47,013 nucleotides of DNA from a virus: the IMG/VR virus record IMGVR_UViG_3300031787_000206, positions 1 through 47,013 of that record. One strand, 5' to 3'. The notes beneath the pieces are model-generated. The model was given only the letters and a program-made list of their open reading frames with translations, searched no databases and was not told the origin of the DNA. The position numbers were made by a program, and so were the translations under genes. Every line of letters begins with the position of its first letter. Within the stretch, counting starts at the first letter, position 1. Positions 749 to 37,673 of this stretch are shown here, one piece after another.

Positions 749-786
749 AACAAATTAACGCCGTCAGGCAAAAGTAAGGAATAGCT

Positions 787-1782: not shown

Positions 1783-1791
1783 GAGGCCAAG

Positions 1792-3981: not shown

Positions 3982-3983
3982 TT

Positions 3984-4295: not shown

Positions 4296-4371
4296 GGCAG
4301 GACGGTCTTGCGCCTATGATCTGCCGGTATGAAGTGTTAAACTTTGACAAATTTTCACGGATGAGGTAGCG

Positions 4372-7614: not shown

Positions 7615-7616
7615 TT

Positions 7617-10028: not shown

Positions 10029-10034
10029 ATAAAA

Positions 10035-13000
10035 ATGCCGACAATCCAGCAAATTGAACAGGCGATGATCGCCGCAGATCGTGCGGGTGATACCGCTTCT
10101 GCTCAAATTCTTGCGGAAGAGATTAGACGGTTGATGGAAGAAGCCCAACCCCGCAAACGCGGTATCAGCGGAGCGTTTCAACGAGGGCTGGAGTCACAGC
10201 TTTCTTCGGGCCGTACTGGGGCAGGTGTGTATACAGGGTCGCCAGAAGAAGCTGCGGAAGCTGCCAGAGCAGGCTTGGCGCGGCAGGAAGACATTGGTCG
10301 CAGGTACGAAGATGAAATCGGTCTGGAGCGGCTGAAGAAGGTTTACGAAGAAAAAGGTCTGCTTGCGGCAGGTAAAGAAGTCGGACGCCAGATTCCGTTA
10401 GCACTGGCAGAACAAGCCCCCCAGATTGCTGCGACATTGGGCAGCGCCAGAGTTGGCGCTATGGCGGGTGCGCCCCTCGGCCCCGCAGGGACTATTGGCG
10501 GTGGTTTGCTTGGCGCAACAATTCCATCGTTCTTAATGGCTTCCGGCTCTCAAGCAGAACGTCGGGCACAGGAGCAGGCTAAACGAGGAGAACAGGTCAG
10601 TATTGACCGAGGCGAATTGGCTACCACGGCAGTCCCCAGCGCCGCGCTGGATGTCGCGGCTACCTTGATCCCGCTTGGTAAAACGGCAGTTAGCCAGATT
10701 ACAAAAATTCCGCTAAAGGCATTTTCGGGGCGCACAGCGGCGCAGGCTGAGAAGTTAGCTAACGAAAGACTACTGGCCACACTAACTAAAGGCACAGCAA
10801 CCGGTGTCGCGGTTGAAGTCCCGACCGAAATACTTCAGCAAATGCTGGAACGCGCACAGGCCGGTCTGCCTTTAGCTTCCCCTGATGCGTACGCTGAGTA
10901 TGGTGACACGGCATATCGTGTCAGCTTGTTGGGTCCGTTGGGTGCTGCGGGCCGTTTCTCTGAAAAAGGTGCAGCGCAAGCCGAGCTGGCAGCACAACAA
11001 GCAGCCCCAACAGCAGCTACAACAACCCCAATAGAAGCACCCATAACACAAGCTGCACCTGCCGCAGAAGAAATACCTATTGAAGAGCGGCGCTTTAGGG
11101 ACATTACGCCAATATCCGGTGCGCCTGCGGCTGAACGTCGTTTTAGTGACATTACCCCAATTCCCGCAACACCTACACCTCCCGCAGCGCCTGAAAAAGT
11201 AGACATCTTCAAAATGATGGAGAGCCACGACACGCTGAAATCGTCGTTGGACCCGTTGGCAGATCAGATTTATAAAGCCCGTCAGGAAGGCGACAACGAG
11301 ACGGCGCGGACTCTCATGCAGGAGTACCGGGACAACGAAGCCGCGATGAATGCGCTGGCTACTCAGATTACGGAAGCAGGTGGTGTGCTGGAGTCGGCTG
11401 AAGAAGCCGAGGCTGCATACAACAAGCAGCTAAAGACGCTGGACAGCAAGATTGCCAAAGAACAAAACACCATCACCGAGATGAGCCGCGCTGATGTGCG
11501 CGACTACGACGCTGTCGATAAAGCTGAGAAGCGCCTTGCCAAGTTGCAGGCCGAGCGCGGCGCAGCCGAAGAAGAATTCCAGCGCAAGCGGGGTGTGTTG
11601 CGTGTAAAAGAAACACCTAAAGACGAACAGATACCACTGTTCGATACTGAAGAGCAGCAGCCCAAAGCTGAGGAAGTCCTGAAGTTCAAGACAGAAAAAG
11701 GCGAAGAGTTTACTGCGGCAGACATTGAAAAAATGACGCAAGGGCCGGTGCAGACTACGGCCTTGTCAAAAGACACCGAAAACCAGATTGCCCAGAAGCA
11801 AGCGGAAGCCGATGATTTGCTCAAGCAAATTGTGGCAATGAGTCCGCGTGTTAGTTCAGAAAACGTAGAGATTGGCGGGCCAAAACGCGCCACTGACATA
11901 GAACGTCAAAGTGTCTTGGATCGGTTAAACGAAGCGCGGCAGAAGTACCGAGACTTGCAAGAGCAAGAAGGTAAGTTGTCTGATGCATCGGCGCAGCCGG
12001 GGTACTACGACAACATGGAATCTGCCAAGGGCAGTGTGCGTCGTCAGATTATTGAACTTGAGCGTGAGCTTGAGCGCATGGCTCCGCGTAACGTCAACAG
12101 AAAGTTTTTAAAAGACTACTACGACAAGAGCACCCAGCTAAACAAAATATACGGTGAGATCGACGCGCTAAGTGCTGCGCCTGTTGAACAGACAAAACAG
12201 CCGGTTGATATTTTTGACTACGCTAATCAGCTTCGCACCGCTACGCTGAACAATGATCCCAAAGCAATCATGGCGATCATCAATCAGCTAAAGAAAGAAG
12301 GCAAAGTAATACCGGACGCGACGCGGGAACGTGCAGAGAAAAAAGCCGGTGAGCGTGCGCAGCGCGGTATGTCCGAGAAAGATAAGCTGGTTCAGACCTT
12401 GGGCCAGCGTCTGGGTTTGCCGGGGCGGATTTCGGAACGCACAGTAACTGAAGAAGAGTATCAGCGGATTGCGGACCGCATCAGCTACCTGATGGACATG
12501 GTTGATAAGCCTGTAGGTCGGGCAAAAATGTCGGTCAAAGACAAAGTAGAAAAGCTAGGCCGCGAGATTGCAGGGCTGACGGAGACACTCAAGAACAAAG
12601 ACCTACCACCCACCACACGGCAGGGTGCCAGCAAGAGCCGCAACGCCAAGGTCAAAGAGTACAACCACCTGATTGAGAACGTCATGGTACCGGCGCGAGA
12701 CGAAATCTTTGCGCTGTATCGCAGCATGTTTACGGTCAAAGAAGTTGCGCCTGTCGGTAGCGCCGAGAAGATGTTGGCGGCAGACGCTGAGAAAACCCGC
12801 AAGGATTTACTGAAAGAGTTTGAAGAGCGTGTAGAAAACTATGGGCCAGAAAGCCCGCAGGTACGGGAGTTTGTTGAGAAGAATCTGTCAGTCAAGATGT
12901 CGCCGCAATACAAGCGGTACAAGAAGATCATTGAAGGTAAAGGTATTACTGCCAGCCCCAAGCGCGTTGCTATGGAGATTGGCCGCGAGACGGACGAGTA

Positions 13001-16000
13001 CAAAAAGTTTGCCGCACCTAAAGAAAAAGAGATTGCCAAGCGTAAAGCAGCGTACGAGAAGTACGAAGCCGACGCTAAAGCTGAACTGGCTAAATTAAAA
13101 GCGCGTGTTGGTGAAACGTCTGAAGACTATAAAAACCGCGTCAACGAGTACACCAAAGGTGCCAAGCAGAAGCTAGACGCGTGGAAGAACTTTGAGAAAG
13201 CCGCGACCAAGGCAATGGACGCTAAAGCTGAAGAGCTTGGCAAAGCCAGCCCAGAGTATCGCAGCCGTAAGCTGAAGGCGACGAAGGAATACAAAGAGGC
13301 AGTTGCTGCGGGTGAACAAGAAATAGAAACCAAACGCACCACGCAAGCGACCCGCAAGATACCTAAACTGAGCCGGATGCAAACGGCTTCGGAAGAGAGT
13401 CGGGCGCGTACACGCACCATTCAGGAAAAGCAAGAACCGGGACTCCTGCCATCGCAAGCAGGCGAGAAGCCTGAAGTGCCATTTAAACCAAAAGCAGAAC
13501 CTAAGTCAGCCAGCGCCATGCTGTCGGCATTCCAAGCTGCGGCTACTAAACGGCTTAAAGAAACTGGCAAGATGCTTCCGGGTGTGGAGACCGAAAGCAA
13601 AGACCTGACGAAAGATCAAGTCAAGCTGTTGGAAGATAACAAGCTGCGCGATGCGTACAGAAATATTTCTGAAGACGATACCAACCAGCCGCTAAACCGC
13701 GCAGTAGCGCTTGCACTTGAGGTTTACGCGGACAAAACAGACGTTGTTATACGCGACCAGTTGTTTACGTCGGACGGCCAAGAAGTGATGGGGCTTGCGA
13801 CCGCACGTAAGGTTGAAATTAGTCGTAAGTACGGCTTGACGCAAGAGGTGTTGTTGCATGAAGGCACGCACTCAGCGGTCGAACGCACGATCCAGATAGC
13901 CGAAGAAGACATCACGCAGCTAGGTAAACAAGAGCAAGCGGCGTATCGTGAGCTAGTAGCGTTGTACAACGCGGCAAAGAACGACCCTGCGATTACCAGT
14001 AAGAACGCTAAGAGCAGCGTATCGGAGTTTGCTGCCGAAGTGCTGTCCAACGAAAACTTGCAGAAGCAGTTGCGCCAGAAGAAGTGGCGTGTATCAGATG
14101 CATTCCGTGGGTTCGTTAGCATTATCCTACGCATGATTGGTGTGAAAAACGTCGAGAACATGCTGGATGCGTCGGTGGCCGCTGTGGAAGCGTTGATGCT
14201 GCCAACTAGTTTTGGGCAGCAGGCAGTTGAGCAACAACGGGCGAAGCCGTTGGAAGGCATTGGTGTGGTTGAAAAAGCCAAAGGCGTGTTTGGGTTTAAT
14301 TCCCAGATGCAGCCCACGCAGTTTGCGTCTTCGTTTGTTGCGAAAGAAAAAGGTGCGGTTGATAGCTTCCGTGCCAATGCGTTGGGTTTGGCTGGTCGCG
14401 TTCAGTTTGTTGACCAGTACGCAGCGTTGTCGGACGCGCTAAGAAAAGGTGTGGATAGCGCAGTTGTAAAAGACCTTGAGGCAGAGCAAGCAGAATACTT
14501 CTTACGCTTCGGTCAGCAACGCACACAGTTTGCCACACAGTTCCTAACCAATGGCCCTGTTAAGCTGGTTGGGCAAGACACCAAGCGCGGCAAAGAATTT
14601 ACCTACGAGAGCAAACCCGGCGCTAACTTGGTGCAAATGGCAGATGCGCTTGAGAAGTCGGGTATGGGTAATGGCACGCAGTTAGAAGCAATGTTTACCG
14701 CATACATGGCAGGTAAGCGTGCCAAGCAGGTAGGTTGGAACAAACTAAATATTAGCGACCCGGCTCTTGCCGAGCGTGAGTACAACGAGGTGGTTGCTGC
14801 ACTTAACGCCAACCCGAAAGGCAAAGCTGCGTTTGAAGAAGCCGCCAAGATATACAAGGAATACAACGCAGGATTGTTGGACTTCCTCGTACAGACCGGC
14901 TACATGACCCGCGAGAAGGCTGCTGAGTTGAAGGCAATTGACTACGTGCCTTACTACCGCGTCAAGGGCGGCGAGTTGCAGTTGTTGGTGGATAAAGAAA
15001 CCCCTGTGCGTATTGCCAGCATCAAGGACCAGCCAGAGTTGCATTCGCTGGTGGGCGACAACGCGCAGATCATGCCAATCTTTACTAGCGCGGTACAGAA
15101 CACGTTTATCTTAGCTAACATGGGCTTGCGTAACCAGTCCGTTAAAGATACGTCGTTCCTGTTAAAGCGTATGGGCATCGCCAGTAAGTTGGGCGAAGGT
15201 AGTGGTCCAAGCAGCCCAGACACCGTGCGTTTCAAAGTTAGCGGTAAAGACTACTTTGCTACCATCGATACGGACGAATACGGCATTCCGGCTGAGTTGA
15301 TTGTCAAGGGCATGGAAGGTATCAAGACCACCATTCCCGCAGCAGTGCGCTTCATGGGTTTGCCTGCTGATTGGTTGCGCACATTTGTTACACGTAACCC
15401 AGCCTACGCGCTTCGCCAAGCCGTACGTGACCCGCTGACTGCCTACATGACCACGGGTGTGGATGGCATTCCTGTGCTGAACTCGATGAAAGAACTCTCC
15501 AAGATGGTGGCGGGTCGCAGCGAAGAGGAACGCAAGCTGATGGCCGCAGGCGCGATCAGCAGTAACGTCTTGACCGGTGACGAAAAGGACATGGAGAAGG
15601 CGCTGCGGGATATTAGCGCAGGTAAATCGGGCTGGACTAAGTTGATGGCGAAGGCCGATGCCTTTGCGATGCAGGGCGATGCGGCAACGCGGGCAGTGAT
15701 TTACAAAGACTCTATCGACAAAGGCATGTCGGACATGCAGGCGTATCTGCGCACACTGGAGTCGATGAACTTTGGGCGGCGTGGGTTATCGCCTAGCATG
15801 CAGATGATGTCTACTTTGATCCCGTTCTTCAACGCTCAGATTCAAGGTTTGGATGTTCTGTATCGGGCGTTTACCGGCAAGTACGGCGGTATGCCGCACC
15901 AAAAGCAGCTTGAGATCAAGAAGAAAATGCTGATGCGCGGCACGCTCATGGCGATGGCGACGTTGGCCTACGCGATGGCGATGGAGGAGGACGAAGCATA

Positions 16001-16877
16001 TAAACGCGCTAAACCCGAAGAGCGATTGGGTAACTGGTTTGTGTACACCCCGTTTGCAGACGAGCCGCTGAAGATACCAATCCCATTTGAGTTTGGTTAT
16101 GCGTTCAAAGCACTCCCAGAAGCGCTATATAACTTGGCTGCAAAGGATGAGCGCAACGCTGACATCACCAAGGGTATGATCAAGCTGGTCGGGTTGTCGA
16201 ACCCGTTTGCGCTACCGGCGGCAATCAAGCCAGCTACCGAGGTCATACTAGGCAAATCGTTCTTTGGTGGTGACATTGAATCGATGCGTGAGCAGAACAC
16301 CCTACTGCCTACCGAGCGGTATCGCGCCAGCACGACAGAACTCTCGAAGCTGATTGGTAGCTTGACAGGGGACGCAGGACTTACTCCGATCAAACTTGAC
16401 CACCTGATTCGCGGACACACAGGCGGGTTGGGCATCGCGCTGATTTCATTAGCCAACCCTATACTGAACACCGAACTCGGCAAAGATGTAGCCGAGCCGA
16501 CCCTGAAGGCAAGCAAAACACCGCTCATCGGCGGTCTATTTCAGCCGGTAGAGGGAAGGGGTACGCTAGACGCTGCGTATGCGCGTATGCTAGAGGTTCA
16601 ACAAACGACCGGGACATTCAAGCGGTTGCTTGAGTCGGGTAAGAAAGCAGAAGCCAAGGAGTTCTTGGACCAGTACCGTAACCAAATTGCAGCAATGCCG
16701 GTGTCGGGTGCGGTACAGCAGAAGCTAGGGGAGTTGGCAAAGTACCGGCGTGTGGTGCTTGAGACACCGAAGCTGACCACCGAACAAAAAGACGCACTGC
16801 TGGACAAGATTGACGCGCAGCAGTATGAAATTGCTAAACGGTTTGTCAGTCTAACCGAAAGAACCAGACCCCAATAA
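10035..16877 (+). CDS. Giant polyvalent virion protein with zincin motif
   Basis: A 2280-aa protein, the longest in the window. Its N-terminal region has a Gly/Ala hydrophobic segment at ~118-172 and two copies of an ERRF-x-DITPI repeat (starting at 351 and 367). Residues ~380-1180 are highly charged, probably coiled coil. At 1275-1279 lies HEGTH within a hydrophobic helix (QEVLLHEGTHSAVE), an HExxH zinc-metallopeptidase signature. The C-terminal third (~1770-2150: WLRTFVTRNPAYALRQAVRDP, then LSPSMQMMSTLIPFFNAQIQG) resembles the LPD38-type domain of large polyvalent proteins, which are injected with phage or plasmid DNA. It is the last gene of the rightward operon before a convergent junction. 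Inferred role: an ejected multidomain protein combining structural and peptidase functions. Confidence 0.75.
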   Translation: MPTIQQIEQAMIAADRAGDTASAQILAEEIRRLMEEAQPRKRGISGAFQRGLESQLSSGRTGAGVYTGSPEEAAEAARAGLARQEDIGRRYEDEIGLERLKKVYEEKGLLAAGKEVGRQIPLALAEQAPQIAATLGSARVGAMAGAPLGPAGTIGGGLLGATIPSFLMASGSQAERRAQEQAKRGEQVSIDRGELATTAVPSAALDVAATLIPLGKTAVSQITKIPLKAFSGRTAAQAEKLANERLLATLTKGTATGVAVEVPTEILQQMLERAQAGLPLASPDAYAEYGDTAYRVSLLGPLGAAGRFSEKGAAQAELAAQQAAPTAATTTPIEAPITQAAPAAEEIPIEERRFRDITPISGAPAAERRFSDITPIPATPTPPAAPEKVDIFKMMESHDTLKSSLDPLADQIYKARQEGDNETARTLMQEYRDNEAAMNALATQITEAGGVLESAEEAEAAYNKQLKTLDSKIAKEQNTITEMSRADVRDYDAVDKAEKRLAKLQAERGAAEEEFQRKRGVLRVKETPKDEQIPLFDTEEQQPKAEEVLKFKTEKGEEFTAADIEKMTQGPVQTTALSKDTENQIAQKQAEADDLLKQIVAMSPRVSSENVEIGGPKRATDIERQSVLDRLNEARQKYRDLQEQEGKLSDASAQPGYYDNMESAKGSVRRQIIELERELERMAPRNVNRKFLKDYYDKSTQLNKIYGEIDALSAAPVEQTKQPVDIFDYANQLRTATLNNDPKAIMAIINQLKKEGKVIPDATRERAEKKAGERAQRGMSEKDKLVQTLGQRLGLPGRISERTVTEEEYQRIADRISYLMDMVDKPVGRAKMSVKDKVEKLGREIAGLTETLKNKDLPPTTRQGASKSRNAKVKEYNHLIENVMVPARDEIFALYRSMFTVKEVAPVGSAEKMLAADAEKTRKDLLKEFEERVENYGPESPQVREFVEKNLSVKMSPQYKRYKKIIEGKGITASPKRVAMEIGRETDEYKKFAAPKEKEIAKRKAAYEKYEADAKAELAKLKARVGETSEDYKNRVNEYTKGAKQKLDAWKNFEKAATKAMDAKAEELGKASPEYRSRKLKATKEYKEAVAAGEQEIETKRTTQATRKIPKLSRMQTASEESRARTRTIQEKQEPGLLPSQAGEKPEVPFKPKAEPKSASAMLSAFQAAATKRLKETGKMLPGVETESKDLTKDQVKLLEDNKLRDAYRNISEDDTNQPLNRAVALALEVYADKTDVVIRDQLFTSDGQEVMGLATARKVEISRKYGLTQEVLLHEGTHSAVERTIQIAEEDITQLGKQEQAAYRELVALYNAAKNDPAITSKNAKSSVSEFAAEVLSNENLQKQLRQKKWRVSDAFRGFVSIILRMIGVKNVENMLDASVAAVEALMLPTSFGQQAVEQQRAKPLEGIGVVEKAKGVFGFNSQMQPTQFASSFVAKEKGAVDSFRANALGLAGRVQFVDQYAALSDALRKGVDSAVVKDLEAEQAEYFLRFGQQRTQFATQFLTNGPVKLVGQDTKRGKEFTYESKPGANLVQMADALEKSGMGNGTQLEAMFTAYMAGKRAKQVGWNKLNISDPALAEREYNEVVAALNANPKGKAAFEEAAKIYKEYNAGLLDFLVQTGYMTREKAAELKAIDYVPYYRVKGGELQLLVDKETPVRIASIKDQPELHSLVGDNAQIMPIFTSAVQNTFILANMGLRNQSVKDTSFLLKRMGIASKLGEGSGPSSPDTVRFKVSGKDYFATIDTDEYGIPAELIVKGMEGIKTTIPAAVRFMGLPADWLRTFVTRNPAYALRQAVRDPLTAYMTTGVDGIPVLNSMKELSKMVAGRSEEERKLMAAGAISSNVLTGDEKDMEKALRDISAGKSGWTKLMAKADAFAMQGDAATRAVIYKDSIDKGMSDMQAYLRTLESMNFGRRGLSPSMQMMSTLIPFFNAQIQGLDVLYRAFTGKYGGMPHQKQLEIKKKMLMRGTLMAMATLAYAMAMEEDEAYKRAKPEERLGNWFVYTPFADEPLKIPIPFEFGYAFKALPEALYNLAAKDERNADITKGMIKLVGLSNPFALPAAIKPATEVILGKSFFGGDIESMREQNTLLPTERYRASTTELSKLIGSLTGDAGLTPIKLDHLIRGHTGGLGIALISLANPILNTELGKDVAEPTLKASKTPLIGGLFQPVEGRGTLDAAYARMLEVQQTTGTFKRLLESGKKAEAKEFLDQYRNQIAAMPVSGAVQQKLGELAKYRRVVLETPKLTTEQKDALLDKIDAQQYEIAKRFVSLTERTRPQ

Positions 16878-28985: not shown

Positions 28986-29173
28986 TCTTTCTCCTTTAGT
29001 TGCTTTCGTAGTTTCCTGATCTCTGCGACCAGTGCTTTGTGGTAAATGTGCATCTTGTGCAGATGCCGTGCTACCTCATCTTCGCCGTCGGCTTTTAACC
29101 GCGCCACAATATCTGGCGTGTCATCGAACCATTCGGCTTTCTTCAGTACGTCAATGTCTTTTGGCGTCTTCAT
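28982..29173 (-). CDS. Small charged protein, unknown
   Basis: A 63-aa protein, rich in Lys, Asp and Glu, ending in a basic helix (AEIRKLRKQLKEKE) that could form a short coiled coil. Both termini overlap neighbours by ATGA, strongly supporting expression. No motif recognised. Confidence 0.6.
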   Translation of the reverse strand: MKTPKDIDVLKKAEWFDDTPDIVARLKADGEDEVARHLHKMHIYHKALVAEIRKLRKQLKEKE

Positions 29174-29385
29174 AGTTTCTCCCGGATTTTCTCAATGCTC
29201 CAGCCTGTCCTGTCGTACACGCGCAGTATGGTGTCGCCTGTTACGGATAACGTGCGGTGCCGTATCTTCGAGACCATCGACGGCGCTATCTTTAAGAACT
29301 GTGCAAGGGCTGCGTCGTGTTTCAGGTTGAACTCCTTGATGATGGCATCAAGGAGTGGGTGGGTTTCTTGTAGTGCTTTTACCAT
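29170..29385 (-). CDS. Helix-turn-helix (Cro/C1-type) regulator candidate
   Basis: A 71-aa protein; the ATG at 29385 is preceded by GGAG and overlaps the stop of the 53-aa gene upstream. The segment HDAALAQFLKIAPSMVSKIR has the Cro/C1 helix-turn-helix form (Ala-x3-Leu, then Pro-Ser-x-Val-Ser-Lys-Ile), followed by SVTGDTILRVYDRTG, the usual next helix of this fold. Such small one-domain proteins often repress phage early promoters or pair with host factors. This is the clearest candidate transcriptional regulator in the block; its operator is unknown. Confidence 0.7.
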   Translation of the reverse strand: MVKALQETHPLLDAIIKEFNLKHDAALAQFLKIAPSMVSKIRHRTLSVTGDTILRVYDRTGWSIEKIREKL

Positions 29386-30451: not shown

Positions 30452-30473
30452 AAAAAGGGGTCAAGCTGACCCC
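30452..30473 (-). terminator. Rho-independent terminator after the peptidase gene
   Basis: On the minus strand a 7-bp stem GGGGTCA / TGACCCC with a 3-nt loop is followed by TTTTT. It lies 9 nt downstream of the stop of the 378-aa peptidase gene, so it is correctly placed to end that transcript. It is also copy 1 of the dispersed 17-nt hairpin family (30457-30473). Confidence 0.75.
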
Positions 30474-30481
30474 ATTTGGTT

Positions 30482-31618
30482 TTAGGCAACGTGCAGGTCA
30501 TCGAACAGCATGCCAAACACAAGGTCAATATCCTCGCCCGCTTCGAGTGCTTCGTACGCCTCCTCAAGTAAGCGCAGGTCAAGTTGTTTGAAGTTCATGT
30601 GCTTCATTGCCAACTCGGTATCGTCGGGGTACACCGATGCTGCAATCATCCGCGCTAGGTTGTCGGTGAACCCATGCTGCGCATCGAGCACGGCATCGAT
30701 GGCATCTTCACGCCGCATCATCTGCTCGAACCGAATGTCGTCGTACTCGAAGTCGTACTTGGCTAGGTTGCTTGCGCTGTGCGTGTACGTCTGGTAGTTA
30801 GTCCACCAGCCGCCCTTTGTGTCAGCGTAAAGGTCTTCCACCACCGAGGGGTCCCGCTCCACCGGCAGCGCGTCCCACGCAACGGAAAGAACCGCAGCAG
30901 AAAGATGTTGATAGTAGTTGAGGTCAAGGCTCTCGGCCTGCGTGTGCTCACGGTCATAGCCTACAGAGATGTTGGTGCATTCGGGGATGATGTCAGTAAA
31001 CTCAGCGGTGTCGGTGTACACGCCGGTGTCATCGTTCAGCATCATCAACTGGTCAGACCCCGCCATCAACGCGTCAGCCAGCGCATCACCAAACGCATCG
31101 GAGCAACACCTGCCCCAGCCTTGATGCGTAATCACGCTATCGATACCCCGACGATCAAACGCAATGGCACGATCAAACTCACCCAGCAAGTCAGGCATCT
31201 TCTCAGCCAGATATCGCGCACCTACCCCGCCTCGCTCTTCGCCCTGCGTAAACACGTAGTAGCCCGGCACGTTGTGGTGAATCATGTGAAACAGTATTGC
31301 TACCCCTGCGCCATCGTCAGCACCCAGCACGTCACCCTTGGCATGCCAGTGGGTCTGGGTCTTCCTGATCTTGTTCTTACCCTCCGATCTATGCACTGTG
31401 TCTACGTGTGCGACGAACAGGGTTTTGTGTGAGTCAAGCGATCGGTTGTCCACGTGCAGGTTGCCTGCCCCATCATAAAAAGAAATTTTATTTAATTCAA
31501 ACGGCAGTTGCTCACGCAGCCATGCCGTGATTCGCTTGTTGGTCTCTGACCCATGTGGGCGCTTGGTTGAAAGAAGTTTGTTCAGTACTTTGAACTGGAT
31601 AGTGTTTTGCTTAGTCAT
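30482..31618 (-). CDS. Di-zinc aminopeptidase-like protein (M20/M28/M42 type)
   Basis: A 378-aa protein with the ordered ligand set of co-catalytic zinc exopeptidases: H71-x-D73 (FVAHVDTVH), D101 in LGADDGAGVA, E127/E128 in TQGEERGGVGA, D155 in AFDRRG and H225 in YDREHTQAESLD. These suggest an intact di-metal site. The C-terminal ~110 residues are acidic and helical and extend beyond the peptidase core. Exopeptidases of this clan remove N-terminal residues or hydrolyse small amide substrates. A phage role might be host protein turnover or nutrient release, but nothing in the sequence identifies the substrate. Transcription ends at the hairpin 30452-30473. Confidence 0.78.
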   Translation of the reverse strand: MTKQNTIQFKVLNKLLSTKRPHGSETNKRITAWLREQLPFELNKISFYDGAGNLHVDNRSLDSHKTLFVAHVDTVHRSEGKNKIRKTQTHWHAKGDVLGADDGAGVAILFHMIHHNVPGYYVFTQGEERGGVGARYLAEKMPDLLGEFDRAIAFDRRGIDSVITHQGWGRCCSDAFGDALADALMAGSDQLMMLNDDTGVYTDTAEFTDIIPECTNISVGYDREHTQAESLDLNYYQHLSAAVLSVAWDALPVERDPSVVEDLYADTKGGWWTNYQTYTHSASNLAKYDFEYDDIRFEQMMRREDAIDAVLDAQHGFTDNLARMIAASVYPDDTELAMKHMNFKQLDLRLLEEAYEALEAGEDIDLVFGMLFDDLHVA

Positions 31619-31636
31619 GGTAGTTCTCCTTGATGG

Positions 31637-33217
31637 TTAGAGTGTTGCAAACGCAGACAGGTCTGCGTCGAGGTTGGCTTCAAAGCTGTTAATGTTGTCC
31701 TCGTGTACGGATACGTAGTCATGCGCAAAGTCAGCACCCAAGATACTCAGCAGTACACGCTCCCGCTTGTGTGCTGCTTCGTGGTAGATGTTGCCTGACA
31801 CATGGCATGTCCAGATGTTGTCTGGGTCTGCGTACGTACCGTCTTCCAACTCGGTCACGTCCTCGATGTGCTCGTACTTGTCGTCATGCTCACAGAACAC
31901 AACCTCATCGTCGTTGCAGTACCAATACTCACCGCGTGACTCAAGGTACACCGCCTCGTCCATCGATATGATGTCGCCGTCATGCAGCTCGACCATGTTG
32001 TTGTCGCTGAGATACTCGGGGTCATACCCCTCGTGGCCGTGGTGGTCCCACACGATGTTGTCGTTGTGCAGGTAGTACTGATTACCCCTGCGACCGTACA
32101 CATAGGTGTAGTCCCGACTGCATGATGGACACACGCCGTGATCCTCGTGTCGCCCAACCCATGTGGTGGAGTCCTCGTCGTGGCTATCCCCGCAGTCGTC
32201 GCACTCGCGTCCGTGGTCTTCCTCGTAGCTGCCGTTGGTACACTCGAACACGTACGGCCCCTCCTCATGCACAACGAGATGGTTGCCCACCTGCTGCACA
32301 CGCTTACAGTTACCGTCGAGGTACGGTGCCATGAACTTACCCCAGCCGTTGTCGATCATGGCCAGCCTGCAACCGATCCAGTCGCAGTCCTTGCTGAACT
32401 CTTGCTCACGCAGCCATGACTCAAGCCCCTCGTCGCTGTGCGAGTAACCGCCGTCCTTGTGTGCATACGACCGCACGAAGGTCTTAGACTCCACGTTGAC
32501 CAAGCAACGACCCACGATGTGACCGTGACCATCGAGGCGCACGGCTGCACGCCAGCCGAGGTTGGGGTCATACGCACGGTACGGGTGATCGTTGTAGTCT
32601 GTCTCCTCGCCCCACTGCATACAGCTTGCTGGCCCCTCTTGCACGGAGCGAATGATGCGCTCGGTGGTATCCCACAGCTCGAACCGATAGCCCGCGTAGC
32701 GTGCAGCTAGATCGCGTACCGCATGGTCAGGCATATCGGGGAAGTGTCGGGCTAGGTACTTGCCCACCGTCGTGATGACCTGTCGATCCTCGTGGCCTGA
32801 ACGGTTGTCGCGTGTGTAGGCCAGTCGGTTGGGGTCAGTCTCGGATACGTGCGGCCACTCAAAAACCAACGAGTGAACTGACTTAGGCCGATACTGCCCA
32901 ACAGCGGCAACGACTGCGGGGTGTAGCTTGAACCGATGTTGCAGGTCAGCGTGCCACATGTGCTCACGCGCATCGTCCTTGTTGATGTTTGGGTAGTTAC
33001 GTTCGATGTAGAACGCATCGGGGCAGGTAGCCACCACGTGCATGGTGCGTAGCACGTTCTTGAGATCGTCAATCAAACGCAGCGCAGCAGCACCGTCGTA
33101 GCCTAGCAGCCAGTACTCACGGCGTTTTTGTTTTGCTTCTTCACGAGCATGGCGTAGGCGTAGCTCGAAGTCGGACTCATGTGGGTTGACCCACGTACTT
33201 GTCGTGTGTAGTTGCAT
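31637..33217 (-). CDS. 526-aa Cys/His/Asp-rich protein, unknown
   Basis: A large protein with no family I can name. Residues 1-330 are mixed alpha/beta with many His and Tyr. A zinc-ribbon-like pair follows: C339-x2-C342 (ECDDCGDSHDED) and C363-x2-C366 (VCPSCSRDY). After that comes a very acidic region of tandem beta-hairpin-like units (GNQYYLHNDNIVW, GEYWYCNDDEVVFCEHDDKYEHIEDV, NIWTCHVSGNIYHEAA). The Cys plus repeated Trp/Tyr-Asp units resemble zinc-ribbon tails found behind phage amidoligase-like proteins, but no amidoligase site is visible. Translation starts from an ACAGGAGAAG leader shared exactly with the Gp157-like gene. An abundant metal-binding or decoy protein is a guess only. Confidence 0.75.
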   Translation of the reverse strand: MQLHTTSTWVNPHESDFELRLRHAREEAKQKRREYWLLGYDGAAALRLIDDLKNVLRTMHVVATCPDAFYIERNYPNINKDDAREHMWHADLQHRFKLHPAVVAAVGQYRPKSVHSLVFEWPHVSETDPNRLAYTRDNRSGHEDRQVITTVGKYLARHFPDMPDHAVRDLAARYAGYRFELWDTTERIIRSVQEGPASCMQWGEETDYNDHPYRAYDPNLGWRAAVRLDGHGHIVGRCLVNVESKTFVRSYAHKDGGYSHSDEGLESWLREQEFSKDCDWIGCRLAMIDNGWGKFMAPYLDGNCKRVQQVGNHLVVHEEGPYVFECTNGSYEEDHGRECDDCGDSHDEDSTTWVGRHEDHGVCPSCSRDYTYVYGRRGNQYYLHNDNIVWDHHGHEGYDPEYLSDNNMVELHDGDIISMDEAVYLESRGEYWYCNDDEVVFCEHDDKYEHIEDVTELEDGTYADPDNIWTCHVSGNIYHEAAHKRERVLLSILGADFAHDYVSVHEDNINSFEANLDADLSAFATL

Positions 33218-33257
33218 GATTACTTCTCCTGTTATTAAGTTATGTATGGGCTGATTT

Positions 33258-33274
33258 CGGGTCAGCCCGACCCG
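33258..33274. repeat. 17-nt dispersed hairpin, copy 2
   Basis: CGGGTCA GCC CGACCCG, a 7+3+7 hairpin with one mismatched closing pair, lies between the genes at 33282 and 33217. On the plus strand it is followed by TTTTT, so the T-tract faces against the direction of the surrounding leftward genes. Confidence 0.75.
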
Positions 33275-33281
33275 TTTTTGG

Positions 33282-33524
33282 TTAGCTGGTTGTCAGTAGT
33301 GTGTGCGCCTGTTCTCTCGTTAGTGGGATTGTCGGTGTGTCCGTGTCGAAGCGTTCTTCTGGGTCACCCAGTATGAAGCGCAGGTATGGTTGCTCACCGT
33401 CATCGAATGGTATTGTCAGCACCATCTCTACGATCAGCGTGGGCGTACTTAACACCGTCATCTCGTAGTCGCTGTACCCATACCCGTTTTCTTTCGTTGC
33501 AATCTGCGTGGTTATCCAGTTCAT
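33282..33524 (-). CDS. Small phage protein, unknown
   Basis: An 80-aa protein, beta-rich (MTVLSTPTLIVEMVLTIPF), acidic, ending PLTREQAHTLLTTS. The ATG is preceded by GGAGGGTGAG, which also contains the stop of the upstream gene. Its stop lies 7 nt before hairpin copy 2. Function not recognised. Confidence 0.6.
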   Translation of the reverse strand: MNWITTQIATKENGYGYSDYEMTVLSTPTLIVEMVLTIPFDDGEQPYLRFILGDPEERFDTDTPTIPLTREQAHTLLTTS

Positions 33525-33525
33525 C

Positions 33526-33708
33526 TCACCCTCCGTTCAAGTCAGACATCGTTAATACCCTGCGAAAATAAATGCGTGCGTACCGTTTGTCTGGGTTCTC
33601 ATCAGGAAACAGAATCCGTGCGTACACTTCAGCGGCTTCCTTCGTATCGAACAGCGTAGGCAGCGTCACCTGTTCTTCTTCCCACACATACCAAACTAAT
33701 ATGTCCAT
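33526..33708 (-). CDS. Small phage protein, unknown
   Basis: A 60-aa protein (MDILVWYVWEEEQVTLPTLF) with aromatic beta strands and an AAEVYARILF helix, a layout typical of small phage proteins of unknown function. The ATG shares its A with the upstream TGA (TGATG) and follows GGAGGGTGAG-type sequence. A GTG one codon earlier is an alternative start. Confidence 0.6.
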   Translation of the reverse strand: MDILVWYVWEEEQVTLPTLFDTKEAAEVYARILFPDENPDKRYARIYFRRVLTMSDLNGG

Positions 33709-33935
33709 CACTCACCCTCCTTCTCAATGAACCGTTCGAACAAGTCACCGAACGCATCCAATAACTTGCGCCGGTTGGACAGGTCAGCGTAGAAATAGGC
33801 TGCGGCTATGCGTGAAGCGAAGCTGCCTCCCTGCTGCTCCATCTTCCGCGCTGCATTGTGTAGCTGATCGTTGGTGTACTTATCTAGTACGCGCATCGGG
33901 CGCGGCATAGCTTTTAGTGTTGGTGTGTTGTCCAT
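33708..33935 (-). CDS. Small helical protein, unknown
   Basis: A 75-aa protein with a basic N-terminal segment (LKAMPRPMRVLDKYT) and two helices (NAARKMEQQGGSF and LLDAFGDLFERFIEKEGE). GGGAGAAG precedes the ATG. It is coupled by TGATG to the next gene. No motif recognised. Confidence 0.6.
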   Translation of the reverse strand: MDNTPTLKAMPRPMRVLDKYTNDQLHNAARKMEQQGGSFASRIAAAYFYADLSNRRKLLDAFGDLFERFIEKEGE

Positions 33936-33951
33936 GTGCTTCTCCCTTCAG

Positions 33952-34056
33952 TTAAAAACGATTAAAGACAAGTAATAAAAGCAGCGCACCCAGTACGCAG
34001 CCAAGGATTGCGCCGACGAGGGCGGCAGCTATAGCAAACAGTTCGTTCTCATCCAT
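33952..34056 (-). CDS. 34-aa single-pass membrane protein
   Basis: A very short gene read directly from the gap between its neighbours. The start MDENELFAIAAALVGAILG is followed by CVLGALLLLLVFNRF and TAA. One long Gly/Ala/Leu transmembrane helix with GxxxG spacing, a negatively charged N-terminus and a positive C-terminal end are visible. Its ATG overlaps the upstream gene stop by 8 nt and GGGAGGG precedes it, consistent with the coupled operon. A small membrane-perturbing or holin-like role cannot be excluded, but nothing proves it. Confidence 0.6.
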   Translation of the reverse strand: MDENELFAIAAALVGAILGCVLGALLLLLVFNRF

Positions 34057-34267
34057 CGTCCCTCCCCACCCACTTGGCGTTGATCACGCTGGGGTAGAAC
34101 TCGGTGACCCAGCCGCTGTCGTTCATGAACTTCACGTACACCCTGCCGGTGCTGCCAGCGTGGTGTGGTGTTCTCCAGCCTGTGACTATGACTGCTTCAC
34201 CGTCGAACGTATGCGCTACGTCGCCGGTCTTGACTGGTTCGTTGGTTTTGATGTGGATCAGGTGCAT
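34049..34267 (-). CDS. Small beta-rich phage protein, unknown
   Basis: A 72-aa protein: MHLIHIKTNEPVKTGDVAHT, then VIVTGWRTPHHAGSTGRVYV, ending WVGRDDG. The alternating hydrophobic pattern and repeated Gly turns suggest an SH3-like small barrel. Similar short proteins occur in phage early regions without known function. AAAGGAG precedes the ATG. Confidence 0.62.
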   Translation of the reverse strand: MHLIHIKTNEPVKTGDVAHTFDGEAVIVTGWRTPHHAGSTGRVYVKFMNDSGWVTEFYPSVINAKWVGRDDG

Positions 34268-34279
34268 GGTGTTTCTCCT

Positions 34280-34633
34280 TTACTCGTAGTGTGGACGGCT
34301 AGTTGGGAACGGTTGAGGGAATCCCTCAGACCAGAGTGCTTCGAACACCCCTTCGGACAGGACGCTGCCGATGTCGCGCCTGCCCTCGTTCCAGTCGGGT
34401 ATCACCGTGAGGTTCAGGTACGCCGTGTAGCTCTCCGCGTCAGACAATCTGTCAAACGCCCTCATGTGCAACGCTGCCTCTGGTTCAAGGCATGGCGTGC
34501 CGCAGTCGTAGTACCACCCGCCTTCTTCGTGACCGCCGAAGGCACGGTCAATCAGGTATATGGCTACGGTGTAGAACCCTCGTGCTTGGCGTTCCTCTTT
34601 GAACTGCGCTACTAGTTGCTCTGCTTCAGTCAT
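34280..34633 (-). CDS. Phage protein, unknown
   Basis: A 117-aa acidic protein beginning MTEAEQLVAQFKEERQARGF, with GGWYYDCGTPCLEPEAALH in the middle and LWSEGFPQPFPTSRPHYE at the end. No active-site motif seen. It is translated from the leader TAACCACAACAAGGAGAAG, which is repeated exactly before the gene at 34659-34982. Confidence 0.62.
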   Translation of the reverse strand: MTEAEQLVAQFKEERQARGFYTVAIYLIDRAFGGHEEGGWYYDCGTPCLEPEAALHMRAFDRLSDAESYTAYLNLTVIPDWNEGRRDIGSVLSEGVFEALWSEGFPQPFPTSRPHYE

Positions 34634-34658
34634 GGTTGCTTCTCCTTGTTGTGGTTAG

Positions 34659-34982
34659 TTATTCCCCTGTTACTGCGCTGACGTAACGTGTGTCTGCGTA
34701 CAGCACATCCTCATATGAGTGGTGATCGGTGTGGATGTACCAGTCATCATCTATAGGTAGCTCGACGATGCGTAGGTCTTTGTTACTCAGCTTGCCCTGC
34801 TCTACCAGCGACACCAGATACTCGTCGCTGCGAAACCGCTGCCAATCTATTTCTCTGAACCAAGTGTCGTTGCTGCCTTTGTTGGGTTCGCGTACCGTCA
34901 CGCCCAAGTCTGTAGCAACCATCTGCATTTCATCTGCGGTTAGTTGTAGGCCGTAGCCGTTGCTGTTGTATACGATCTTCAT
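34659..34982 (-). CDS. Acidic phage protein, unknown
   Basis: A 107-aa protein starting MKIVYNSNGYGLQLTADEMQ; the ATG at 34982 was chosen because AAGGAG precedes it and the open frame further upstream gives a non-natural sequence. A helical region with LGVTVREPNKGSND is followed by LRIVELPIDDDWYIHTDHHS, an Asp/His-rich segment, and an acidic end. Function unknown. Confidence 0.62.
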   Translation of the reverse strand: MKIVYNSNGYGLQLTADEMQMVATDLGVTVREPNKGSNDTWFREIDWQRFRSDEYLVSLVEQGKLSNKDLRIVELPIDDDWYIHTDHHSYEDVLYADTRYVSAVTGE

Positions 34983-35002
34983 TTCACTTCTCCTTGTTGT
35001 GG

Positions 35003-35260
35003 TTAAAGAACTGCTAGGTACTTCTTCAGGACTTCGAAGTCTGCTTCGGGTATCTCGCGGTAGTCCTCCACATAGACCAGCGTGGTGTCGCACCAGTACC
35101 CCTGCAACGCCTTGTCCCAATCGCCTTTGGTACTCCCGCGCCAATCTTTTGCCACCTTGTCGGCGTGCTTGGCAGGGTCACCTTTGGTTGTGAATAGGTA
35201 CGGCGTGTCGTACTCGAAGTCACCGTTTCTTTCTCCGATACGTCCCAAGTAGTGTTTCAT
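35003..35260 (-). CDS. Small phage protein, unknown
   Basis: An 85-aa protein (MKHYLGRIGERNGDFEYDTP) with features of a small mixed alpha/beta fold: FLFTTKGDP-like strand (here YLFTTKGDPAKHADKVAKDW), then GYWCDTTLVYVEDYREIPEADF. The same order (strand, AKHADKVAKDWRG helix, then YWxD strand) recurs in unnamed phage proteins. AAGGAG precedes the ATG. Function unknown. Confidence 0.62.
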   Translation of the reverse strand: MKHYLGRIGERNGDFEYDTPYLFTTKGDPAKHADKVAKDWRGSTKGDWDKALQGYWCDTTLVYVEDYREIPEADFEVLKKYLAVL

Positions 35261-35290
35261 TTGCTTCTCCTTTTGTTGTGCCTGATTTTT

Positions 35291-35307
35291 CGGGTCAGGC
35301 TGACCCG
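35291..35307. repeat. 17-nt dispersed hairpin, copy 3
   Basis: CGGGTCA GGC TGACCCG, a perfect 7+3+7 hairpin. It contains the last codons and stop of the 265-aa gene (35295), which therefore ends ...ENGSA. On the plus strand it is flanked by TTTTT before and TTTT after. Confidence 0.8.
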
Positions 35308-36092
35308 TTTTCTTCCGGCATCTTTACTACCGGTAGTTCTGCTACATATAGTTCACCCCATGTGTGTGGCACTTGCTCGTCATCGTCGAGCAGGATTAGC
35401 CAGTTCAGAATGTTCTGGGTGTGTTTCACCTTAGCTTGCGCATCGCGCTCGGCCTCGCTGGGTTGGCCTTTGTTTAGTTCGCGTATCAGGGTGAGTTCCT
35501 GCTCGGCTTCGAGAATCTCGCGCTTGGCCGTGGCGATATGTTTGATACGCAGCTTGATGTTGTCGGCCTTTGACATGGTGCGTGGGAATGGGTCTTTGAC
35601 TCTGGCCTTGGCTGCGCGGGGTATCTCGGCAAACGCTTGGCCTATCGCCCGCTTCATGTGCTCGGGAACCCAGTCCGTCCAATGCTTGCCCTCGTTGGGT
35701 ATCTCCTTGCCCTTCTCCTGCTTCAGGTACTTGGCCTGTTCTTTGGGTGTGCGTTCGCCGTAGTACCTGTACTCACGCAGCTTTTCTTTTAGCTTGGCCA
35801 GTAGCTTGGCGTATGCGTTCAACGCTTCACGCCGTTGTGGGTTCGGGTACTTCTGGCTTTCGTAGTTCAGCATTGACCGCACGCTGCGCTGCTCGTTCGC
35901 CAACGGTGTGAGTAGTTCACGCCACAGGTCTTGCACCATGCGCTTGCGTGCTGCGTTGCTTCGTACTGCGCGTTTGTGTTCGGCCACTTGTTGGCGTATG
36001 GCCTGTGCTTCCGCACCTCGGATGCCACGCTTGAGTAAGGCCGCATGAACTTCTTTGTCAGTCATGCCGATGTACAACATAAACGATTTCAT
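35295..36092 (-). CDS. 265-aa basic helical protein, unknown
   Basis: A Lys/Arg/Gln-rich, mostly helical protein. It starts MKSFMLYIGMTDKEVHAALL, then has a basic stretch (RAVRSNAARKRMVQDLWREL), a coiled-coil-like middle (LNAYAKLLAKLKEKLREYRYYG) and a conserved-looking WTDWVPEHMKRAIGQAF. The N-terminal segment has a DKEVHAALLKRGIRGAEAQA helix-turn pattern that may bind nucleic acid. Its last residues (EENGSA) are encoded by hairpin copy 3. It is the first long gene left of the AT-rich non-coding region, so it may be expressed early. No family recognised. Confidence 0.65.
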   Translation of the reverse strand: MKSFMLYIGMTDKEVHAALLKRGIRGAEAQAIRQQVAEHKRAVRSNAARKRMVQDLWRELLTPLANEQRSVRSMLNYESQKYPNPQRREALNAYAKLLAKLKEKLREYRYYGERTPKEQAKYLKQEKGKEIPNEGKHWTDWVPEHMKRAIGQAFAEIPRAAKARVKDPFPRTMSKADNIKLRIKHIATAKREILEAEQELTLIRELNKGQPSEAERDAQAKVKHTQNILNWLILLDDDEQVPHTWGELYVAELPVVKMPEENGSA

Positions 36093-36127
36093 TTTGTCCT
36101 CTTTTAAAAGGTGTTTTGGATAGTGTG

Positions 36128-36148
36128 TCCGGAAGTATCCATCGTTTT
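36128..36148 (+). repeat. 21-bp inverted repeat, left arm
   Basis: The left arm begins TCCGG and ends ATCCATCGTTTT. Its reverse complement recurs at 36427-36447 with only two mismatches, at positions 6 and 8. Confidence 0.75.
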
Positions 36149-36426
36149 GCCGAGCATGTCCACCTTTTTGGACACCCCAGAAGACGCACTGGTGCTGGGT
36201 TTGCGACGCGACAGTCCTAAGTGTTCATGGTTTTTGGAAATAGCTATACCCCTTCAAAACAGAACAAAAAGTTGAACGGGTGCGAACGCGGAAACGCACG
36301 TACTAAAACACATTTTTTACTACCCTATAGTTTTTATTTATATATATGTATATATAGGACTGTATTTATTCAGACGCTAGGATTCATGCGGGTTTTGGGG
36401 GTGTCCGAAAGTTGTCCGTAGTTGAT

Positions 36427-36447
36427 AAAACGATGGATAGTGCCGGA
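36427..36447 (-). repeat. 21-bp inverted repeat, right arm
   Basis: The right arm reads AAAACGATGGAT at its left end and GCCGGA at its right end. 278 bp separate it from the left arm. Confidence 0.75.
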
Positions 36448-36459
36448 TACCCCCCTTTT

Positions 36460-36476
36460 CGGGTCATTTTGACCCG
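36460..36476. repeat. 17-nt dispersed hairpin, copy 4
   Basis: CGGGTCA TTT TGACCCG, a perfect 7+3+7 hairpin followed on the plus strand by TTTTCTT. The stop of the 61-aa membrane protein (36464) is inside it, and the protein ends ENGSK because of it. Confidence 0.8.
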
Positions 36477-36649
36477 TTTTCTTCGTAATAGATGCGGTTG
36501 ATCCGGTTGGTCAGCATGAATATGCCCAGCGTGTACATGGGAAGCCAGATCGCGCCGTCACCCTCGATGAAGTCCAGCGGGATAACAACGCAGCAGACAG
36601 CGACGATTGTGCCGAGTAAGTGGGCGTACTTTTGAAGTCGGTTGTTCAT
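36464..36649 (-). CDS. Small membrane protein (two TM segments)
   Basis: A 61-aa protein (MNNRLQKYAHLLGTIVAVCC) with two hydrophobic segments, about 10-27 and 35-48, separated by a DFIEGDG turn, then a basic and acidic tail IYYEENGSK. The final ENGSK codons lie in hairpin copy 4. AAAGGA lies upstream of the ATG. Possible small holin-like or superinfection-type membrane protein; unassigned. Confidence 0.6.
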   Translation of the reverse strand: MNNRLQKYAHLLGTIVAVCCVVIPLDFIEGDGAIWLPMYTLGIFMLTNRINRIYYEENGSK

Positions 36650-36668
36650 GGTGTGGTTCCTTTCAGGG

Positions 36669-36818
36669 TTAGATGCGGAAGTCGTTAGCTTTGAGGAACT
36701 CGATTTCCTCTGGTGTTGCCAAGCACACAGCCATCATGTGCTTGTTGAGGTACGCCTGAAGTTTGGCGCGGTCTGATGGTGCGCGGGTTAGTGCGAATTT
36801 GAGGATGAGTTTGGTCAT
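36669..36818 (-). CDS. 49-aa phage protein, unknown
   Basis: Found by reading the gap between 36650 and 36925. The minus-strand frame starts MTKLILKFALTRAPSDRAKL, continues HMMAVCLATPEEIEFLKAND and ends in TAA at 36671-36669. AAAGG precedes the ATG. The alternation of a hydrophobic N-terminal strand, a helix and a C-terminal TPEEIEFLKAN helix looks like a compact natural domain, and the gene fills its gap neatly. Function unknown. Confidence 0.62.
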   Translation of the reverse strand: MTKLILKFALTRAPSDRAKLQAYLNKHMMAVCLATPEEIEFLKANDFRI

Positions 36819-36906
36819 GATTGATGCCTTTCAGGTTGATTTGGGCTGGGTTTGACAGGGATTGAAACAGCGGCCAGCCCTCCCGCTGTCACGTTCAGGA
36901 AAAAAC

Positions 36907-36923
36907 GGGTCAGGTTGACCCGA
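36907..36923 (-). terminator. Terminator after the 127-aa gene (hairpin copy 5)
   Basis: CGGGTCA GGT TGACCCG, a perfect 7+3+7 hairpin. On the minus strand it follows the stop of the 127-aa gene by 2 nt and is followed by TTTTTT, so it is a correctly oriented rho-independent terminator. A second imperfectly placed stem, ACAGCGG/CCGCTGT (36867-36889), lies just beyond. Confidence 0.75.
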
Positions 36924-36925
36924 AA

Positions 36926-37309
36926 TCAAGCAACGGCCTTCAGAAACGCACGGCGCTGCGCTGGGGTCAACGCCTCAAACTTCGTGATCAGCGCGTCAAC
37001 TGGGTCAGTCTTGCCGGATGACTTGCCGCTCGAACGCGACTCACCCTTCAATGCGTTCATGGTGTCGCGTACGCGGGTCTTCAGGAACTCGTACTGCTTG
37101 TGCTTGCTGTCGAGCATAGGCTTGCCGTCTTTCGAGCGGTTGTAGCCCTTGCCCTCTGCGAGTGCCTCGCATACTGCGACGATCACGTATGGTCTCTGCG
37201 TCTCGGGCGTGTCGAGGCCGAGCGAGTGCATAGCGATGAGCAAGTCGTCTTGCTGGGTGAGGTACTTGGCAACGATCTTGTTGACTTGGGTTTGAGTAGC
37301 GTTTTGCAT
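36926..37309 (-). CDS. 127-aa early protein, unknown
   Basis: The first gene of the leftward block, starting MQNATQTQVNKIVAKYLTQQ at an ATG preceded by GGAG; an in-frame TTG four codons earlier was rejected. The protein has a helical N-terminal half, then a basic charged linker (LKGESRSSGKSSGKTDPVDA) and a final AlaLeuThrProAlaGln-type helix (FEALTPAQRRAFLKAVA). The first position after the divergent promoter region suggests immediate-early expression. No known domain; a host-interaction or regulatory protein is possible. Confidence 0.65.
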   Translation of the reverse strand: MQNATQTQVNKIVAKYLTQQDDLLIAMHSLGLDTPETQRPYVIVAVCEALAEGKGYNRSKDGKPMLDSKHKQYEFLKTRVRDTMNALKGESRSSGKSSGKTDPVDALITKFEALTPAQRRAFLKAVA

Positions 37310-37409
37310 GGTGTTCTCCAATCAGGTTGAAAAGGGTTGTGCCGAGGGCTTTCCCCCGACAATTTCAGTATCCCATACCCCCTGTTTTATCGGTTTATTC
37401 GGTTTATTT

Positions 37410-37426
37410 CGGGTCAAAATGACCCT
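37410..37426. repeat. 17-nt dispersed hairpin, copy 6
   Basis: CGGGTCA AAA TGACCCT, with six of seven pairs and a 3-nt loop, followed on the plus strand by TTTT. It lies between the first leftward gene and the candidate promoters, so it is not at a gene end. Confidence 0.7.
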
Positions 37427-37645: not shown

Positions 37646-37673
37646 AAAAAAACCCGCCGAGGGGAGCGGCGGG
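37646..37673 (-). terminator. Strong minus-strand terminator
   Basis: CCCGCCG / CGGCGGG, a 7-bp GC-only stem with a 7-nt loop, followed on the minus strand by TTTTTTT. It would stop leftward transcription arriving from the rightward gene side, just before the leftward promoter, and so could insulate the early promoter from antisense readthrough. On the plus strand it would form a hairpin in the leader of the rightward transcript. Confidence 0.75.

Follow-up and report, generated by a model that had tools for sequence, protein, structure and literature searches.

Dispersed palindromes in a viral early region whose sequence follows the first early gene among relatives

Six palindromes and the first early gene of the window

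The stretch of DNA analysed here (the window) is the IMG/VR virus record IMGVR_UViG_3300031787_000206 at its full 47,013 bp, and the element in question is a family of six short palindromes (dyads) lying at 30457–37426. Genes of the window were assigned to early and late blocks from their reading direction and from family matches. The late genes read rightward and comprise terL at 38377, the portal gene at 39925 and those at 1–16877, with terS placed at 37713 by position and by reading of the sequence. The early genes read leftward (17000–37309) and encode a primase/helicase, a helicase, an exonuclease, a DNA polymerase, a peptidase and many small proteins without known function. The dyads sit in the promoter-proximal portion of this early block. 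Its first leftward gene, which we call slot 1 (36926–37309, minus strand, 127 amino acids), lies directly left of the control region and is flanked by dyads 5 and 6; we propose that it encodes their cognate DNA-binding regulator (type A of several protein types).

An earlier note on this DNA had described six hairpins with a strict 7+3+7 architecture. All six were present when the window was re-scanned, with copy 5 starting at 36906 rather than at 36907. The 7+3+7 arrangement is perfect in four of them (30457, 35291, 36460 and 36906) but is broken in the others, at the innermost pair in the dyad at 33258 (A-C on the plus strand; G.U in leftward RNA) and at the outermost pair in the dyad at 37410 (C...T). 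The strict invariant is the shorter 6+3+6 dyad GGGTCA-N3-TGACCC, which is exact in five of the six.

Dyad 1 (30457–30473, GGGGTCAagcTGACCCC) lies in the gap after a peptidase-like gene (30482–31618) and carries a leftward-sense T-run. Dyad 2 (33258–33274, CGGGTCAgccCGACCCG) has one core mismatch, common to close relatives, and the start of the leftward gene 31637–33217 is 41 nt downstream of it. Dyads 3 and 4 each overlap a stop codon: dyad 3 (35291–35307, CGGGTCAggcTGACCCG) that of gene 35295–36092, with the start of gene 35003–35260 following about 31 nt downstream, and dyad 4 (36460–36476, CGGGTCAtttTGACCCG) that of gene 36464–36649, at the edge of some 370 bp of non-coding DNA that precede gene 35295–36092. 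Directly past the slot-1 stop is dyad 5 (36906–36922, CGGGTCAggtTGACCCG), again with a leftward-sense T-run. Dyad 6 (37410–37426, CGGGTCAaaaTGACCCT) lies in the control region between the divergent early and late genes, about 100 nt upstream of the slot-1 start codon.

Counting every arm, 23 perfect 6+3+6 dyads occur in the window, five of them with the arm GGGTCA and one each with the next arms listed. In 300 dinucleotide shuffles the highest number of copies of any one arm was one (291 shuffles) or two (9 shuffles), and the GGGTCA repeat is therefore not due to chance. The earlier statement that the hairpins occur only in the accessory block holds across the window, where there are no exact copies outside 30457–37426. 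With up to three mismatches allowed, 17 copies were found where 16.6 were expected. As this total is at chance level, the signal is restricted to exact and one-mismatch copies.

Dyads and slot 1 among relatives

The 20-base pattern TTTCGGGTCANNNTGACCCGTTTT matched 57 stretches on 55 IMG/VR contigs, the window's near-twin included, and two scrambled-arm control patterns gave 0 and 0 matches. At least two dyad copies (up to eight, with at most one core mismatch) were present in 56 of the 57 pattern loci, whose G+C content ranges from 0.41 to 0.59. Loops and flanks differ between the copies of one genome. Because the arms stay fixed across these loci while the loops drift, a factor that reads the sequence is suggested.

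Relatives of the window's terminase (the best 80 of at least 596 terL matches) were searched for dyads as repeats, with no sequence assumed. From 60 loci read, 56 were kept after removal of the window's twin (L063), a short stretch with no repeated dyad (L069) and two loci with no slot-1 frame there (L108 and L116). Comparison of dyad/slot-1 pairs used 55, L090 having no repeated exact dyad, and 41 non-redundant loci were left once near-identical slot-1 proteins had been removed.

These relatives hold other dyads at similar places, at about −1.0, −1.5, −2 to −2.4, −3.5 and −4.6 kb from terL. The 41 non-redundant loci contain 17 dyad classes, with two to seven copies per locus. With a spacer of one base the classes are GGGACT-N1, GATTCAG-N1 and GGGGGAAC-N1; with two, GGGGTCA-N2, GGGAGA-N2, GGGAAC-N2, GGGACA-N2, GGGGAAA-N2, TTGCGACA-N2 and GTGGTCA-N2; with three, GGGTCA-N3 and GGGACA-N3; with four, GGGGTG-N4, GGGGTA-N4 and GGGAAG-N4; and with five, GGGGAG-N5 and GTGGAC-N5. 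In 38 of the 41 loci all exact copies belong to a single class, and the switch is thus nearly complete. Alignments of single sites gave dyads that differ while both flanks stay homologous, as between L070 and L074, where GGGGTCAGTTGACCCC is aligned with GGGGTGAAGTCACCCC and 132 of 159 columns are identical. No repeated GC dyad was found in the part searched of 023Pt_psg01, DSL-LC04 or HTVC027P.

A dyad starts 1–9 nt past the slot-1 stop codon in 40 of the 41 loci. Overlap with a predicted leftward gene by at least 12 nt was seen for 26 of 186 sites, compared to 6090 of 8200 random positions, and the sites are thus mostly intergenic.

Dyad identity tracks the slot-1 gene. Among pairs drawn from the 55 loci, the same dyad was found in 16 of 1284 pairs with slot-1 N-terminal domains less than 35% identical, in 28 of 115 pairs at 35–60% identity and in 67 of 86 pairs at 60% or above; 13 of those 16 pairs join distant members of type A or of type B. 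For pairs with terL at least 95% identical, the dyad was the same in 0 of 28 where the N-terminal domains were less than 35% identical, as opposed to 37 of 38 where they were at least 60% identical. Across the 41 loci, the partial Mantel correlation of same-dyad with slot-1 identity was 0.69 given terL (0 of 5000 permutations), and the partial correlation of same-dyad with terL was −0.01 given slot 1. When permutation was made within terL groups only, 0 of 5000 reached the observed 46. The swap pair L098 and L099 has terL 99.0% identical, slot 1 22% identical and different dyads.

A scan of open reading frame families, made in the 28 loci with over 4.5 kb upstream, gave slot-1 type A as the sole full match apart from its own antisense shadow (phi 1.00; 5 of 5 loci with GGGTCA-N3 and 0 of 23 without it), the next value being phi 0.61; only five loci are in the class, and there are near-duplicates among the other 23. 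Starting from the dyad, a homolog of slot-1 type A was encoded in 53 of the 57 pattern loci. Three of the four without it (L006, L008 and L035) have type A on another stretch of the same contig (L060, L030 and L177), leaving L016. Starting from the protein, at least one exact GGGTCA-N3 dyad was present in 78 of 80 loci (the best 80 of 99 kept), those without it being L159 and L208. The commonest dyad in L159, L161 and L162 is CCGGTC-N5-GACCGG.

The dyad was also forecast from the nearest slot-1 protein in 120 loci outside the training contigs (what remained of 216 loci once 55 on training contigs and 41 duplicates had been set aside; those of type A had already been examined before). The forecast was right for 85 loci and wrong yet within the protein type for 13, and in the other 22 no dyad of the library occurred twice. 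We regard the pairing of protein and site as strongly supported by these sequence comparisons. They lend weight to one suggestion of the earlier note, that the hairpins are sites for a protein that binds GGTCA-type palindromes, with the product of 36926–37309 as the candidate.

Alignment with hhalign linked type A to type D (95.6%) and type D to type B (98.1%) and gave no A–B or A–C link; the slot-1 ‘types’ are therefore partly one family. In type C, compared by eye, the dyad goes with the N-terminal domain, and two C-terminal modules each occur with both dyad variants; the N-terminal domain appears to carry the specificity. Column 88 of type C divides the two dyad variants (11 versus 6 distinct N-terminal domains), a lead only, many columns having been tested. 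The AlphaFold (AF2) model of type A has a confidently predicted N-terminal domain of helix-helix-beta hairpin-helix form, a disordered linker and a C-terminal helical hairpin, with a mean pLDDT (predicted local distance difference test) of 84.6; that of type C has an all-helical N-terminal domain (pLDDT 74.2). The type A model had no significant match among viral models. The slot-1 protein of the window had no Pfam match above the cut-off and no PHROG match, and for eight other slot-1 proteins the best E value against PHROGs was 0.02.

Synechococcus phage MinM2 (65,014 bp) has a terL 44% identical to that of the window and carries 21 exact GGTTCA-N3-TGAACC dyads, of which 13 are essentially intergenic and two overlap a gene by 12 nt; its early region is 88% coding. 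The dyads of MinM2 (L216/L217) are spread over the whole early block, with a few inside late genes. In score and record length, the terL matches of Planktothrix phages Pag-Yong1 and Pra-JY27 equal that of MinM2.

Probable operators, and rival readings as RNA hairpins or terminators

We think it likely that the six palindromes are dispersed operators of a dimeric, autoregulating early repressor encoded by slot 1, with sites that diversify fast among apparently virulent phages. Comparison between loci establishes a dyad family, its nearly complete concerted switching, close tracking of slot 1 and the anatomy of the sites. From these we infer that the slot-1 protein binds the dyads directly and that the ligand is DNA rather than RNA. 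The protein would be made early and would act as a homodimer on double-stranded DNA, reading the half-sites GGGTCA/TGACCC and not the 3 bp between them. Its gene lies between a proposed leader/promoter operator (37410) and another directly past the stop codon (36906), and the remaining four are proposed for gaps that follow within 6.5 kb of the early operon. By acting at its own promoter, and by blocking or terminating RNA polymerase in the gaps of the operon, the slot-1 protein would reduce early transcription. In the relatives, the N-terminal domain and the repeated operators would have changed jointly, the operators in both sequence and spacing, and different, probably mutually blind specificities would have arisen in different lineages; competition or superinfection among related phages may drive this diversification.

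A wider proposal, which we put forward only tentatively and consider rather doubtful, is that these are strictly lytic phages with an immunity-like system. Within an infected cell, incoming phages of the resident's type would have their early genes silenced, whereas those of other types would escape, and the recognition code would be re-invented by lineage. The driver would be negative frequency-dependent competition rather than lysogeny, and slot 1 would represent an undescribed modular DNA-binding family with several N-terminal domain types and swappable C-terminal modules.

Several observations weigh against the operator interpretation, in addition to the small size of the class and the near-duplicates in the open reading frame scan. 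Three of the 41 loci (L087, L074 and L082) keep single exact copies of another class, and L082 has no dyad at the slot-1 stop. L161 and L162 retain one GGGTCA-N3 copy beside their CCGGTC-N5 dyads. The remaining three of the 16 same-dyad pairs below 35% identity join L137 with the type D loci L093, L094 and L097 (slot-1 identity 18–24%) and are a real exception, and 19 of the 86 highly similar slot-1 pairs differ in dyad, within one type. The differences between L098 and L099 extend to further early genes. Fold searches with the two models brought out no similarity to known DNA-binding domains: the best Z values were 3.5 and 4.8, and no match by Foldseek or in the PDB was significant. In MinM2, six of the 21 exact dyads lie entirely within genes, and the first early gene, MM2_92, is linked weakly to slot-1 type A (E 0.0056, via the C-terminal module). 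The lone GGGTCA-N3 dyad of L087, a locus with TTGCGACA-N2 as its repeated dyad, lies at about −4311 from terL and is possibly a relic of an earlier specificity.

An alternative that we consider unlikely places the same partners on RNA: slot 1 would encode an RNA-binding translational repressor or an N-like antiterminator acting on hairpins of the leftward early mRNA, often near ribosome-binding sites, and hairpin and protein would co-diversify. The sites of the window do lie in a leftward-transcribed early block, the next predicted leftward start codon is within 150 nt for 117 of 164 sites of relatives, and eight MinM2 sites (one with a mismatch) end 22–23 nt before a start codon. One innermost mismatch recurs in six of the 13 one-mismatch sites (four independent places by position). 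These six are A-C cases that read as G.U in leftward RNA, which weakens the case for DNA and keeps the RNA reading alive; on the plus strand, G/T pairs make up 3 of the 13. The loop sequence, however, is free in the window's clade. In the classes with a 1- or 2-bp spacer, the innermost symmetric bases, which are unpairable in an RNA hairpin, are kept at 75 of 75 sites, although this figure is partly built into how the dyads were found. Because symmetric bases are kept where RNA cannot pair, DNA is favoured as the ligand. Watson–Crick pairing in the flanks did not exceed the mean obtained by shuffling within loci at any of the 8 positions, and mean extension fell below that of the shuffles; a stem reaching into the flanks was rejected.

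That the dyads are intrinsic terminators, sense or antisense, is improbable. The earlier note had counted two of the six window dyads as having the T-run oriented to terminate the leftward genes, and this holds for 30457 and 36906; the other four carry a rightward U-run. The dyad after slot 1 has a leftward U-run (at least five in eight) in 18 of 40 loci and a rightward one in 1 of 40. A minority of dyads, above all that after slot 1, may double as leftward terminators, and dyad 1 (30457) may do so too. As a general function, however, termination is rejected, including the antisense form raised in the earlier note: 112 of the 186 sites in the 41 loci have no U-run (five of eight) on either strand, none of the 21 exact MinM2 sites has one, flank pairing does not exceed that of shuffles, and the dyad after slot 1 has its U-run in only those 18 loci. 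The tracking of slot 1 would not be expected of terminators. An ordinary intrinsic terminator lies between terS and the early operon (37646–37673, minus strand; GC stem plus seven T). It keeps a constant place in eight close relatives, where its stem sequence drifts with pairing and U-run kept, in contrast to the fixed arms of the dyads. This contrast rests on the alignment of the eight relatives because the automated terminator search was loose (found in 23 of 41 loci, 16 distinct stems, with a stem for L021 that differs from the one aligned). In the 41 loci, the A/T runs to the left and right of a dyad often consist of one and the same base (T..T or A..A, read on one strand), which gives polarity to a symmetric site.

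We give still less credence to sites of host regulators, by which phages of different hosts would carry different host sites and slot 1 would follow the host indirectly, since dyad identity is unrelated to terL given slot 1 and a dyad adjoins the slot-1 stop codon in nearly every locus. Least credible of all are recombination or gene-conversion repeats, or a mobile cassette spreading in the early region, be it a terminator, as the earlier note had envisaged, or a promoter: one dyad type does recur within a genome, but loops and flanks differ from copy to copy with the arms fixed, the copies listed share no extended flanks within one genome, and sites differ inside conserved, homologous flanks.

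Genome setting, known systems and meaning

The strong leftward terminator described above belongs to the divergent control region that separates terS from the early operon. A candidate extended −10 element (37367–37375, minus strand; leftward TGGGATACT) is alike in an alignment of close relatives and would be the promoter of slot 1. Two other genes were considered as the binder and rejected. A Cro-like helix-turn-helix gene, recognised by reading of the sequence (29173–29385, minus strand), is in only 2 of 19 related records and is absent from dyad-carrying records. Gene 35295–36092 (minus strand, 265 amino acids, without a known PHROG or Pfam family) does not track the dyad; it occurs in many relatives, and its product is 24% identical to the L064 counterpart despite terL being 95% identical. 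The A/T-rich non-coding stretch of about 370 bp at 36093–36459, mid early operon, is possibly an origin or promoter region. Among the late genes, 10035–16877 (plus strand) encodes 2280 amino acids with the Pfam ‘Large polyvalent protein associated domain 38’ at residues 1986–2165 and, judged by its place, is perhaps an injected virion protein.

Integrase (PF00589), resolvase (PF00239) and ParA-like ATPase (PF13614) were each found in 0 of 13 records, which may be incomplete (the window at 47 kb and twelve others of 59.7–66.5 kb). With no sign of lysogeny in these records, the phages are apparently virulent. Genome contigs yielded one terL relative, on a 7.6-kb contig binned as a beta proteobacterium, which is not informative on the host.

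The joint change of slot 1 and its repeated sites resembles a repressor system of the immunity type, but in phages whose records give no sign of lysogeny. Parts of this arrangement recall known systems. In lambdoid phages, the N protein and boxB form type-specific, co-diversifying pairs of a first early gene with dispersed hairpin sites, boxB being an RNA with a structured loop. Slot 1 and its dyads are likewise a first early gene with dispersed hairpin sites, but the dyad loop is variable in the window's clade and the symmetry extends into unpairable positions. The promoter early stem-loop cassettes of T4-type phages place stem-loops in early intergenic gaps, as here, whereas in the present case each genome keeps the arms of its dyads fixed in sequence, and a protein gene tracks them. 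The start-associated sequences of Cluster K mycobacteriophages are short repeats just upstream of start codons, where they resemble the MinM2 dyads; we know of no protein linked to them.

Dispersed sites of one repressor are a kind already known from L5-type phages and from SPbeta. In L5-type (Cluster A) mycobacteriophages, Rep acts as one phage protein with dispersed stoperators (PMC6550527, PMC9283540). One site, with a proposed role in autoregulation, precedes the repressor gene in an intergenic region, and further sites lie in downstream genes (PMC6550527). The stoperators are asymmetric, the crystallised repressor is monomeric, and the phages carry integrase or parABS (PMC6550527). The slot-1 arrangement resembles that of Rep in that dispersed sites track one phage protein and the motif varies by lineage along with this protein. 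Unlike stoperators, the dyads are palindromes with perfect arms and change radically in both spacing and sequence, and the 13 possibly incomplete records, in contrast to the L5-type phages, yielded neither integrase nor resolvase nor ParA-like ATPase.

In SPbeta, the intergenic repeat SPBRE was recognised in silico before it was proved to be bound by the repressor MrpR (YopR); it is a 15-bp motif in promoter regions of several phage genes, and MrpR is a prophage master repressor related to tyrosine recombinases (PMC10516654). Both cases have a repeated intergenic element tied to one phage protein. MrpR differs in being a prophage repressor, and change of its motif between relatives is not described in the excerpt of PMC10516654. 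In a literature search by title and start of abstract, no paper turned up that describes the slot-1 families, sites of this palindromic form, switching to this degree or the apparently virulent setting, which is no proof of absence from print.

The comparison suggests that a number of small phage proteins without annotation are sequence-specific regulators. MinM2 is a named, sequenced phage with 21 exact copies of such a dyad, and slot-1 proteins are a possible source of orthogonal repressors. The finding also raises the question of why virulent phages would diversify operator specificity as temperate phages diversify immunity. The 17 candidate protein–operator specificities would form a natural panel in which to follow the evolution of DNA recognition where a protein has to change together with many sites.

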